DNA of 35,959 bases, taken from positions 1 to 35,959 of the forward strand of contig JAFXPL010000175.1 of the NCBI GenBank assembly GCA_017527945.1. Direction: 5' to 3'. Below the pieces are notes generated by a model. The model was given only the letters and a program-made list of their open reading frames with translations. It had not been told where the DNA came from and ran no database searches. Every line of letters starts with the position of its first letter. Within the stretch, counting starts at the first letter, position 1. This document shows positions 148 to 21,860 of the stretch, one piece after another. This DNA is from Bacteroidales bacterium (GTDB lineage: Bacteria > Bacteroidota > Bacteroidia > Bacteroidales > WCHB1-69). A program made the position numbers and the translations under genes.

Positions 148-238
148 ATGTATATTAGAAACTACTTCCTTAAGCAGTCCCGGAGGGACAAGACGCGCGA
201 AGCGCTAATAACCCCATACAAGCGCAGCGCAGTGTGGG
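148..238 (+). repeat. Three-hairpin dispersed element, copy 1 (coding)
   Basis: The sequence from the ATG at 148 to 238 matches 12694-12784. Three hairpins are visible: 177-189 (GTCCC, loop GGA, GGGAC), 195-205 (GCGC, loop GAA, GCGC) and 213-238 (CCCATAC paired with GTGTGGG, enclosing GCG-CAG-CGC). In the other copy the same stems have different bases but still pair. The element is translated as the N-terminus of the barrel protein. Confidence 0.85.
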
Positions 239-1038
239 ACTTGGCACCAGAGACAAGTTCGGACTGCGGAGACAGCGATACGGGTGAGCGCAGCGCAATA
301 CGTGCGTGTCTGGCCCTCCTCGTCCTCGTCCTCCTTGCCTCTCCCCTCTTCGCCCAGCACCGCGACACCCTGTACGTGGTGGAGGAAGAGCCTGTCTATG
401 ACACCCTCTTCGTGCACGACACGCTCCGAGTGCACGACACGTTGGTCCCGATGCAGACGGACAAAAACCAACCCGAAAAACGGAAATCAAAAGTCAGCTA
501 TTATCATGCTCTTGGGGTGGATTATGTCCTTCAGCCCTTTGCGATGGAGTATGACAATCAGAAATATTACGAAATGGGGGTTCGTTTGCATGTACTGAAC
601 GGTATCCAATTTAACCCTTGGCTGATACTTTCGCTGGATTTTCAATTTGCATACACGCATGGCTACGACGAAGATTTGACATTCGTTATGCCTATGAAAG
701 GTATCTCCAACGGTTCCAAAAACGGCCTCAGGTCTTTTGAAAACGTCGGTTTCAAATTGGGTTTGGACTTCCGATACCGTTGGTTCAACAGGTTCAAATG
801 GAGTCCTGTCATAGGCATTGCAGGTGGTCCGTCCATAGAATTGACTTCCTACCCGTTACAAGATGGAGAATTCAAGAGTTATTGGGGATGGGGTGGCTAT
901 ATATCCAATTATCTTGGTTGCAGCTACCGATACCGGAACAACAAACAATTGTGGTTCGGGGCAAGCTGGACTGTCGATTTTGGATATGTTTTCATTGCGA
1001 TACCATTACTTGGCTTCAGGTTTGAAATACAGTTGTAG
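148..1038 (+). CDS. Exported outer-membrane beta-barrel protein, unknown function
   Basis: The protein has about 296 residues. It begins with some 50 hydrophilic residues that come from a repeat shared with the gene at 12694. A hydrophobic signal segment ending LASPLFAQ (a signal peptidase I-like site) follows. Next is a short stretch repeating a V-x-D-T pattern (VYDTLFVHDTLRVHDTLV), which looks like a periplasmic linker. The remainder, rich in alternating aromatic and polar residues, ends in GFRFEIQL like a barrel strand. I place it in the outer membrane by inference. An ATG at 142 is also in frame; 148 is preferred because the shared repeat starts exactly there. No specific family was recognised. 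Confidence 0.75.
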   Translation: MYIRNYFLKQSRRDKTREALITPYKRSAVWDLAPETSSDCGDSDTGERSAIRACLALLVLVLLASPLFAQHRDTLYVVEEEPVYDTLFVHDTLRVHDTLVPMQTDKNQPEKRKSKVSYYHALGVDYVLQPFAMEYDNQKYYEMGVRLHVLNGIQFNPWLILSLDFQFAYTHGYDEDLTFVMPMKGISNGSKNGLRSFENVGFKLGLDFRYRWFNRFKWSPVIGIAGGPSIELTSYPLQDGEFKSYWGWGGYISNYLGCSYRYRNNKQLWFGASWTVDFGYVFIAIPLLGFRFEIQL

Positions 1039-12693: not shown

Positions 12694-12785
12694 ATGTCTA
12701 TAAAAAATATCTTCCTTAAGCAGCCTCGAAGAGGCAAGACGCACGCAGTGCAATTAACCCCACACAAGCGCAGCGCAGTGTGGGG
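12694..12785 (+). repeat. Three-hairpin dispersed element, copy 2 (coding)
   Basis: This copy matches 148-238 starting exactly at the ATG. The hairpins are 12723-12735 (GCCTC, loop GAA, GAGGC), 12741-12751 (GCAC, loop GCA, GTGC) and 12758-12785 (CCCCACAC with GTGTGGGG). Relative to copy 1, three base pairs change on both sides (T-A to C-G, C-G to T-A, G-C to A-T) and one wobble pair becomes C-G. Sequence upstream of the ATG is unrelated in the two loci. Confidence 0.87.
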
Positions 12786-13575
12786 TCTGTCGTGCAGGCG
12801 CAGCGCAGTGTGGGGTCTGTCATGCAGGCGCAGCGCAGTGTGGAGCCTGTCAATCCTCTTGGTGCTGATAGTCGCGTCATGCCAGTCCAAGCCAAAAGCT
12901 CCGGATGCACTGCTTGTGGAAGCTGACACTTCAGTGGAACGCGTCGAGACGGAAACGCCGAAATACACGGAGATGGAGCTGCAGCTCCTTGACTTCGGGC
13001 TGCAGGACATCGCGGAAGTTGATTCCACCATCGGAGTGTTCATGGTCTATGCCACGCCCGATAACTTCTTGGGTCACGTTCTTTACCCCGACATCCACCA
13101 CGCCTTTGCGATTCCTGCCATGGCGCAGAAACTTGTGAAAGCGCAGCAACGGTTGAAGTCGCTTCGTCCCGACTTGTCGCTGTTGATTTACGATGCTGCG
13201 CGTCCGGTTAGTGTGCAGCGTGAGATGTGGGAATCGGTGAAAGGCACGCCGAACATTTCGTTTGTGGCCAACCCCGCCAAGGGACGTGGCATGCACAACT
13301 ATGGTGCGGCGGTCGATATCACGATCATGGACAGCACCGGAACACCGTTGCCGATGGGGTCTGCACACGACTATTTCGGTCCGGAAGCCCGTATCGACCA
13401 CGAGCCGGAGTTGGTCGCCAAAGGTCTGATCACTTCGGAAGAACTGGAAAACCGCAAGCTGTTGCGTCGCGTGATGACCGAGAGCGGCTTCATCACCTGC
13501 GTGTCGGAATGGTGGCATTTCAACCATATTCCTTCCATTCGGGCGAAATCAGAGCTGAAAATCATCGATCTGTAG
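12694..13575 (+). CDS. D-alanyl-D-alanine dipeptidase lipoprotein (VanX/M15D)
   Basis: This 293-residue zinc peptidase of family M15D would cleave D-Ala-D-Ala or related dipeptides in the periplasm. The zinc motifs are present: GMHNYGAAVDI with His201 and Asp208, and EWWH with Glu272 and His275. YDAARPVSVQ is the usual substrate-binding Arg segment. A lipoprotein signal (LLVLIVASC) lies at about 56-65, unusually deep in the protein. The first ~55 residues come from a dispersed element and three 30-bp tandem units (KRSAVWGLSC-type). No vanH, vanA or vanRS lies nearby, so the likely role is peptidoglycan turnover rather than glycopeptide resistance. Confidence 0.9.
   Translation: MSIKNIFLKQPRRGKTHAVQLTPHKRSAVWGLSCRRSAVWGLSCRRSAVWSLSILLVLIVASCQSKPKAPDALLVEADTSVERVETETPKYTEMELQLLDFGLQDIAEVDSTIGVFMVYATPDNFLGHVLYPDIHHAFAIPAMAQKLVKAQQRLKSLRPDLSLLIYDAARPVSVQREMWESVKGTPNISFVANPAKGRGMHNYGAAVDITIMDSTGTPLPMGSAHDYFGPEARIDHEPELVAKGLITSEELENRKLLRRVMTESGFITCVSEWWHFNHIPSIRAKSELKIIDL
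12766..12855 (+). repeat. 30-bp tandem repeat, three units, in frame
   Basis: Units start at 12766, 12796 and 12826. Each begins A(A/G)GCGCAGCGCAGTGTGG and encodes ten residues (RSAVWGLSCR). The third unit diverges at its end, where the hydrophobic signal segment begins. The repeat extends the last hairpin of the dispersed element. Confidence 0.9.
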
Positions 13576-21799: not shown

Positions 21800-21811
21800 C
21801 TTTGAGTTTGT

Positions 21812-21860
21812 TAGTGATTAGTGAATAGTGATCAGTGATCAGTCACAAGTCATACGTCAC
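21812..21860. repeat. Heptanucleotide array, TAGTGAT type, between mrp and thyA
   Basis: Seven units in register: TAGTGAT, TAGTGAA, TAGTGAT, CAGTGAT, CAGTCAC, AAGTCAT, ACGTCAC. It starts 13 bp from the thyA ATG and reaches into the mrp stop codon at 21857-21859. Unit type matches the arrays at 99 and 1111. Confidence 0.85.

Follow-up and report, generated by a model that had tools for sequence, protein, structure and literature searches.

Two copies of a structured repeat in the window

The window, that is the whole stretch of 35,959 nucleotides that was analysed, has two full copies of a palindromic element, referred to as copy a and copy b, each located in frame at the 5' end of a gene (host genes a and b; Table 1). 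The homology of positions 148-238 and 12694-12784, which had been suggested from the sequence of the window, was confirmed: 74 of 91 bases are identical in an ungapped alignment, and when each copy was folded alone, an identical set of three hairpins resulted, at -24.2 and -24.7 kcal/mol. The 18-base 3' core, AAGCGCAGCGCAGTGTGG, is present at four sites in the window at no more than three mismatches (220, 12766, 12796 and 12826), compared with 0.02 sites expected in shuffled sequence. Numbering of the core starts at 166 in copy a and at 12712 in copy b. The three compensatory stem-pair differences noted between the copies are also present, at pairs 13-23, 15-21 and 32-38; pair 52-69 differs on one side (T-G and C-G) and pair 47-74 is unpaired in copy a. 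As for the suggestion that the element begins exactly at an ATG, an ATG does head both 91-base matches, but the conserved core starts at TTCC and the ATG is part of an AT-rich arm, comprising the 18 bases 5' of TTCC, that is weakly conserved among copies. The element has no counterpart among the RNA families of Rfam 15, a scan of the window having found two tRNAs above gathering score and nothing on the element.

Table 1. Positions of the element copies, their hairpins and the host genes in the window
Feature	Positions	Strand	Remarks
Host gene a, exported protein, 298 aa	142..1038	+	residues 3-33 are element arm and core
Element copy a	148..239	+	arm 148-165 (ATG at 148), three-hairpin core 166-239; R1 match 166-239, 100.7 bits
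Hairpin 1, copy a	177..189	+	GTCCCGGAGGGAC
Hairpin 2, copy a	195..205	+	GCGCGAAGCGC
Hairpin 3, copy a	212..239	+	translated as the KRSAVW peptide
Hydrophobic segment and likely signal-peptide cleavage region, host gene a	304..354	+	ACLALLVLVLLASPLFA, by inspection of the ORF
Host gene b, VanX-like Peptidase_M15 putative lipoprotein, 293 aa	12694..13575	+	PF01427, 4.4e-22
Element copy b	12694..12785	+	arm with ATG 12694-12711, core 12712-12785; R1 match 103.9 bits
Hairpin 1, copy b	12723..12735	+	GCCTCGAAGAGGC
Hairpin 2, copy b	12741..12751	+	GCACGCAGTGC
Hairpin 3, copy b	12758..12785	+	from the fold of copy b
Two additional in-frame tandem copies (30 bases each) of the hairpin-3 core	12786..12843	+	repeat family D4, spacing 30, 30
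Hydrophobic segment and lipobox cysteine, host gene b	12844..12882	+	SLSILLVLIVASC, by inspection

Regarding the host genes, a second in-frame ATG is located at 142, six bases 5' of the ATG at 148, and either could be the start of host gene a. Its protein has no Pfam and no NCBIfam match, and the term barrel protein, taken from the original prediction, is kept as a name only. The assignment of the second protein as VanX-type agrees with Pfam. In both ORFs a hydrophobic segment begins at about residue 51-55, in line with the signal peptide expected near residue 55, and in host gene b the ATG at 12694 is the only Met codon ahead of this segment. Relatives without the element were detected for both genes, e.g. 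P0100, P0110 and P0116 for host gene a and the orthologs L183, L184, L185 and L189 for host gene b.

Conservation of the fold

In a set of 96 distinct ungapped copies of exactly 74 bases, the four column pairs with the highest corrected mutual information are stem pairs (15-21, 32-38, 13-23 and 54-67), and pair 15-21 is T-A in 56 copies and C-G in 40 with zero mismatches. In an alignment of 24 copies, three measures were higher than in any of 500 shuffles, namely the proportion of paired cells (98.6%), the number of cells with a both-side change (20) and the covariation score. Two others did not exceed the shuffles, namely the pairs with both-side change (3, compared with 2.6) and the further pair types (6, compared with 8.7). 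The stems are thus kept by complementary changes, as in REPs, according to the 96-copy covariation and three of the five measures on 24 copies.

The encoded peptide tracks the pairing, QPRRGK being found with CCCC/GGGG or CCTC/GAGG and QSRRDK with TCCC/GGGA. Copies with each of these three stem variants are present at the barrel-gene site within a constant flank, CGATATGGCTATGTATAT, which may reflect either in-place compensation or the replacement of whole hairpins between copies.

Copy number and host range

A covariance model built on 24 copies (R1) detected the element at E 0.001 in all 12 genomes searched, with at least 22, 31, 34, 41, 52, 55, 58, 92, 110, 119, 124 and 141 matches per genome, these counts, made among 150 candidates scored per genome, including single tandem units of hairpin 3 as well as partial copies. 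The element is therefore, like REPs, a short and dispersed palindrome of high copy number; a 400-kb tile of G001 alone has four copies of at least 84 bits.

In scans run with stricter filters, 71 of 104 genomes of the Bacteroidales family to which G001 belongs had an R1 match at E 0.001, with a best E below 1e-20 in 35 of the 104, and a sample of the order Bacteroidales gave matches in 13 of 295 genomes. Three of these 13 (G001, G025 and G035) belong to the same family, and the best E among the other ten was 7.8e-11. The 12 genomes were those in which a loose-form scan of public genome contigs had found 21 stretches, all with titles naming Bacteroidales or Bacteroidetes and several referring to the rumen, abomasum or omasum of yak or sheep. 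The element can be described as a palindromic repeat dispersed through genomes of one family of uncultured gut Bacteroidales. Seven genomes of the family (G057-G060 and G063-G065) had 29-47 matches with a best E of only 6.5e-18 to 8.6e-22, and perhaps carry a diverged subfamily of the element.

A clade of Y1 transposases flanked by the element

Genes for Y1 transposases (Y1_Tnp, PF01797) are present in all 12 genomes (32 matches, 30 given loci). Element matches (R1, E 0.1 or better) were found at 13 of the 30 loci and not at the other 17; at 11 of the 13 a match of more than 20 bits lies near the gene, while L163 and L173 have matches of only 13-19 bits. A tree was built from the proteins of 21 loci, the nine that do not fit the protein motif, which are also without an element match, being left out. 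All 13 element-flanked proteins form a single clade (support 100/100) and the other eight proteins in the tree have no element matches.

At nine of the 13 clade loci the transposase gene lies between inverted copies, with a '+' copy upstream and a '-' copy downstream (at L163 and L173 by the weak matches); at seven loci the '+' copy is 74-153 bases upstream and the '-' copy 42-157 bases downstream. L160, L161 and L177 have other arrangements, and L172 is truncated on one side by the end of its contig. In each of the nine genomes in which the clade was parsed it is represented by one to three genes, compared with dozens of element matches. In G005, G010 and G012, with at least 52, 58 and 31 element matches, the flanked clade is absent among the parsed Y1 proteins, these assemblies being MAGs in which some Y1 loci were unparsed.

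Regarding the affiliation of the enzyme, three clade transposases scored 23.7-32.9 bits against the NCBIfam RAYT model, which has a cut-off of 80, while two of the three passed the NCBIfam cut-off for IS200/IS605. Neither a GTAG nor a CGTC tag was detected at the hairpin foot, hairpin 1 having the foot AGCAG in the 24-copy consensus (by inspection). The element is therefore called REP-like and kept out of the GTAG and CGTC superfamilies, as its enzyme is nearer to IS200 and fails the RAYT cut-off, and the element has neither tag.

These scores, together with the presence of three clade genes in G004, two in G009 and two nearly identical ones in G011, would also suit a MITE derived from a classical IS200/IS605 insertion sequence. 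The ends of IS200 are not known to be inverted repeats, and no complete insertion sequence was delimited. An IS200/IS605 MITE is judged rather unlikely in view of the inverted arrangement of the flanking copies, which corresponds to that described for RAYTs (PMC2817692), and of the small number of clade genes relative to element copies. Judged from the sequences, the element behaves like a REP with its RAYT, and its mobilization by the flanked Y1 (IS200/RAYT-like) transposase is very likely. The original suggestion of a mobile, REP-like hairpin landing at gene starts is to this extent supported, and the clade provides a candidate cognate transposase.

Position and orientation of the copies

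Genomic context was surveyed for 110 of 191 matches, namely those of at least 71.5 bits minus three duplicates of one genomic place; the 191 matches come from 89 sources, mostly around the best-scoring copies, so that the set is enriched in conserved copies and includes orthologs shared between genomes. A longest-ORF rule was used to call genes in the assemblies, which are MAGs, and the rows are correlated. According to this rule 12 copies overlap an antisense ORF, and 23 of the 110 are in frame with an upstream ATG in an ORF of at least 150 codons, many of these being orthologs of few genes. Of the other 87 copies, nine have the element's frame open for at least 150 codons without an upstream ATG.

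These 87 copies are strongly oriented. The next gene has the same orientation as the element in 75 cases and the opposite one in eight (none in four), and the previous gene is co-oriented in 73 and opposite in 11 (none in three). Where both neighbours are present (80 copies), the element has the orientation of both in 65 cases and is opposite to both in three, with seven in divergent and five in convergent gene pairs; keeping one copy per downstream-ORF length class leaves 49 co-oriented with both and three opposite to both. Location between co-directional genes is itself only mildly special, because 244 of 330 gene pairs in the 400-kb tile of G001 are co-directional (their spacers making up about 61% of the intergenic bases); it is the orientation that is special, and its cause may be either a transcription-linked target or selection. 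In the 66 genes 3' of untranslated copies the first in-frame ATG is 16 to 248 bases after the element. The fused copies L077 and L111 are labelled unfused in the analyses of arm conservation, frame, covariation and downstream genes. A search for more copies, for covariation and for a non-random position has thus found all three.

Alleles with and without the element

Close orthologs differ in the presence of the element. Among 30 lolA loci, eight of the 18 closest (at least 77% identity) have it in frame (L212, L213, L215, L216, L219, L220, L221 and L222), while ten do not, with remnants in the spacer in L223, L226 and L227; the LolA N-terminus of L223 is MNMRKITIILLLMALWFGVEA. All eight element-bearing alleles, including a diverged one, are in frame and stop-free, and in L222 a further repeat is nested inside hairpin 1 with the frame retained. 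Between L212 and L213 the upstream flanks are 93% and the mature parts 95% identical, compared with 68% for the extension, with no indel and no stop; the lolA extension changes quickly and its frame is kept.

Similarly, L186 and L188 among 30 M15 loci have an in-frame element, L182 retains a remnant in which the AVWG junction is the same, and at L189, where the upstream gene appears to be that of the window, the signal peptide is plain. The barrel protein is found with (P0111) and without (P0110) the element, with a common mature start, AQHRDTLYVVEEEP. Among 30 topA loci the element is located in the untranslated spacer in L242, L243, L244, L248, L249, L253 and L256, and L257 has a lone hairpin-3 unit.

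These alleles bear on the possibility that the element is a cis-acting RNA leader with a role in translation, mRNA stability or processing, selected before co-directional genes and only incidentally mobile. The co-orientation with downstream and with both neighbouring genes, measured against the background share of co-directional spacers, and the retention of the stems across 96 distinct copies are what such a leader would lead one to expect; none of topA, lolA and M15 depends on the element, however, as shown by their close orthologs without it, the downstream genes are functionally mixed, the window element is without an Rfam match, and the fold can be accounted for by a cognate transposase. 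A regulatory leader consequently appears improbable. The earlier idea that the fold is selected to control export or translation was likewise not supported: most examined copies are untranslated and the copies are associated with a Y1 transposase, so that mobility would explain the fold more simply than regulation.

In-frame fusions at gene starts

When the first 60 residues of the M15 lipoprotein were used as query, in a protein search with a reach of about 161 to 512 residues in protein length, 84 clusters with an N-terminal element were detected, belonging to about 20 families by Pfam labels and our own grouping. The fusion families include LptE, LolA, M15, TolC-like, substrate-binding, cytochrome peroxidase, ABC permease and barrel proteins, several unnamed lipoproteins and a DNA methylase. 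A 904-residue query found eight proteins, which are ABC permeases and members of a kinase-like family of about 500 residues. Fusions without a signal peptide are present in the DNA methylase (P0042, P0053, P0067 and P0071) and kinase-like (P0123-P0127) families, which rules out that fusions are confined to exported proteins.

According to a crude rule, 77 of the 84 fused clusters have a hydrophobic 10-mer within the first 115 residues, compared with a hydrophobic N-terminus in 30 of the 66 genes downstream of untranslated copies, an unequal comparison in that 115 and 35 residues, respectively, were scanned and the rows are non-independent. Between the element and the hydrophobic segment, Met is absent in 48 of the 77 and present without a basic residue in eight, leaving a usable Met in 21. 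The element therefore probably encodes the n-region, as 56 of the 77 have no downstream Met that would give a basic one.

In four fused arrays, three of them orthologous, the hairpin-3 units follow one another at spacings that are multiples of three in all eight cases, whereas the spacings in 31 intergenic arrays are distributed over the three phases (19, 16 and 14). Together with the lolA alleles, the downstream-Met count and the comparison of L212 with L213, this frame evidence argues for translation of the extension, as had been predicted.

In contrast, the prediction that the repeat provides the start codon as a fixed part did not hold, since the distance from the ATG to the TTCC core varies among genes and the lolA ATG of L212 and L213, which overlaps the upstream stop, looks native. 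Insertion just behind a native start is not general either, as the ATG of the fused ABC permease at L127 sits in the AT-rich arm; a paralog at this locus retains a native-looking start.

In the weakest alternative, every copy of the element would be a 5' leader that is not translated and the extension would be a gene-calling artefact, the true start being further downstream at an ATG or at one of the hairpin-3 GTG codons, which are possible starts in some families. It draws on the largely untranslated state of the examined copies, on the downstream ATGs of the 66 genes, on the usable Met in some fused proteins, on the obvious native-looking Met 3' of the element in P0084 and P0081, and on the published view that REPs at the N-termini of ORFs may in many cases be extragenic (PMC3733652), but is very unlikely given the 48 proteins without Met before the hydrophobic core, the absence of a basic n-region in most of these if a hairpin GTG were the start (by inspection), the frame kept in fused and not in intergenic arrays (with four fused arrays, three of them orthologous) and the eight in-frame, stop-free lolA alleles.

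Proposed origin of the extensions and relation to known repeats

The reading preferred here, with a probability of about 0.83, is that the element is a REP-like palindrome moved by a Y1 transposase and that its fused copies are translated as the n-region of exported proteins. The element would be non-autonomous and mobilized by the transposase whose gene it flanks, and its hairpin pairing may be retained because the transposase recognizes the hairpins. Most examined copies are untranslated and lie in short spacers, pointing the same way as the genes on either side. As the element has a stop-free frame, LKQPRRGKTREAQLTPHKRSAVWG, copies at or just after a start, or joined to a gene by loss of the spacer, could be read as a 5' extension from an upstream ATG. 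Such an extension would be tolerated mainly at genes for exported proteins, where the signal peptide is removed after export and the extension presumably with it, and the Lys and Arg residues encoded by the repeat could act as a basic n-region before an existing hydrophobic core. In the two window genes the element would thus provide the signal peptides of the barrel protein and the M15 lipoprotein with their n-region and possibly with a start codon.

A wider proposal, put forward tentatively as the less probable part of this interpretation, is that a transposase-driven palindrome serves as a standing generator of secretion leaders, in which strand-biased insertion is tied to transcription and the element acts as a 5' leader for co-directional genes and as a portable frame-open module giving initiation context and n-region, so that the N-termini of core envelope proteins such as LolA, LptE and TolC-like proteins would be repeatedly rewritten.

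The element shares with REP/RAYT systems palindromes of high copy number with compensating changes, a Y1 transposase gene flanked by inverted copies and a mainly intergenic location (PMC2817692; PMC3733652). It differs in its length of about 74 bases and three hairpins, compared with the single palindrome of 20-40 bases in a REP, in having neither a GTAG nor a CGTC tag and a transposase under the NCBIfam RAYT cut-off, and in being strongly co-oriented with the downstream gene and recurrently read as a signal-peptide n-region. REPs within ORFs have been reported, those at the NH2 terminus in many cases being judged possibly extragenic and due to start mis-calls (PMC3733652).

With the Rickettsia palindromic elements (RPEs), compared by description, it has in common a palindrome that is read in one fixed frame within genes for unrelated proteins (PMC10969869; PMC3733652), as seen in the 84 clusters, about 20 families and the frame test, and RPE-1 N-terminal proteins of Rickettsia are stated to be expressed in vivo (PMC3733652). 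RPEs are described from many kinds of gene, whereas the fusions described here are at the starts of mainly exported proteins and the element is accompanied by a transposase gene. The palindromic amphipathic repeat coding element (PARCEL) is also a palindromic coding repeat of membrane-targeted proteins but is described as a 25-residue tandem domain (PMC2996958), compared with a start-proximal hairpin with many untranslated copies. With IS200/IS605 the element-associated enzyme shares the Y1_Tnp domain, while the mostly inverted flanking copies and the many solo copies are points of difference. Among the titles and abstracts of the open-access papers searched by term, none was found that treats REPs or RAYTs as sources of signal peptides in Bacteroidales.

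REPs are named as extragenic, and the evidence presented here argues for a repeat that is translated and joins in the export of envelope proteins such as LolA, LptE and TolC-like proteins, because alleles exist with and without it, the frame is kept and another good start is lacking. As signal peptides are cleaved, the front of an exported protein may be, as a general proposal, a safe landing site for mobile DNA, and a translated repeat may influence where gene starts are called in these genomes.

Additional repeats and the barrel-protein locus

Two other repeats were noticed near the element. A second palindromic repeat, with a sequence close to CCCCCCTTTAGGGGGGATGCCCGCAGGGCAGGGGGG, often abuts its 5' side (L220, L061, L053, L059, L123 and P0046), and in some LolA proteins it also falls within the open frame (PPFRGDARRAGG). 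A third, with a sequence close to CCCAGGGTGAACGAAGTGAGCCCTGGG, is located in spacers before lolA and an ABC permease (L214, L223, L225, L226 and L127), and in some cases it is linked with the element at hairpin 1.

Downstream of the element, host gene a is 100% identical in G006, G009, G012 and G022 (L272-L275), the TopA proteins of which are 85% (G006 and G022) or 95-96% (G012 and G009) identical to one query. The 5' part, comprising the element, the signal peptide and the AQHRDTLYVVEEEP linker, is joined to differing downstream proteins in P0028, P0044 and P0120. This may be a recombining or transferred surface-protein locus, or the result of MAG contamination. In the window, host gene a is bracketed by a 78-base direct repeat (48-125 and 1060-1137, 96% identical), and in L001 another element, with an ORF of 95 codons, lies 943 bases further on, so that the locus resembles a tandem array. 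Seven-base tandem repeats of the TTAGTGA/TCAGTGA type are present in the window in intergenic positions at 98-141, 1110-1155 and 21811-21856.
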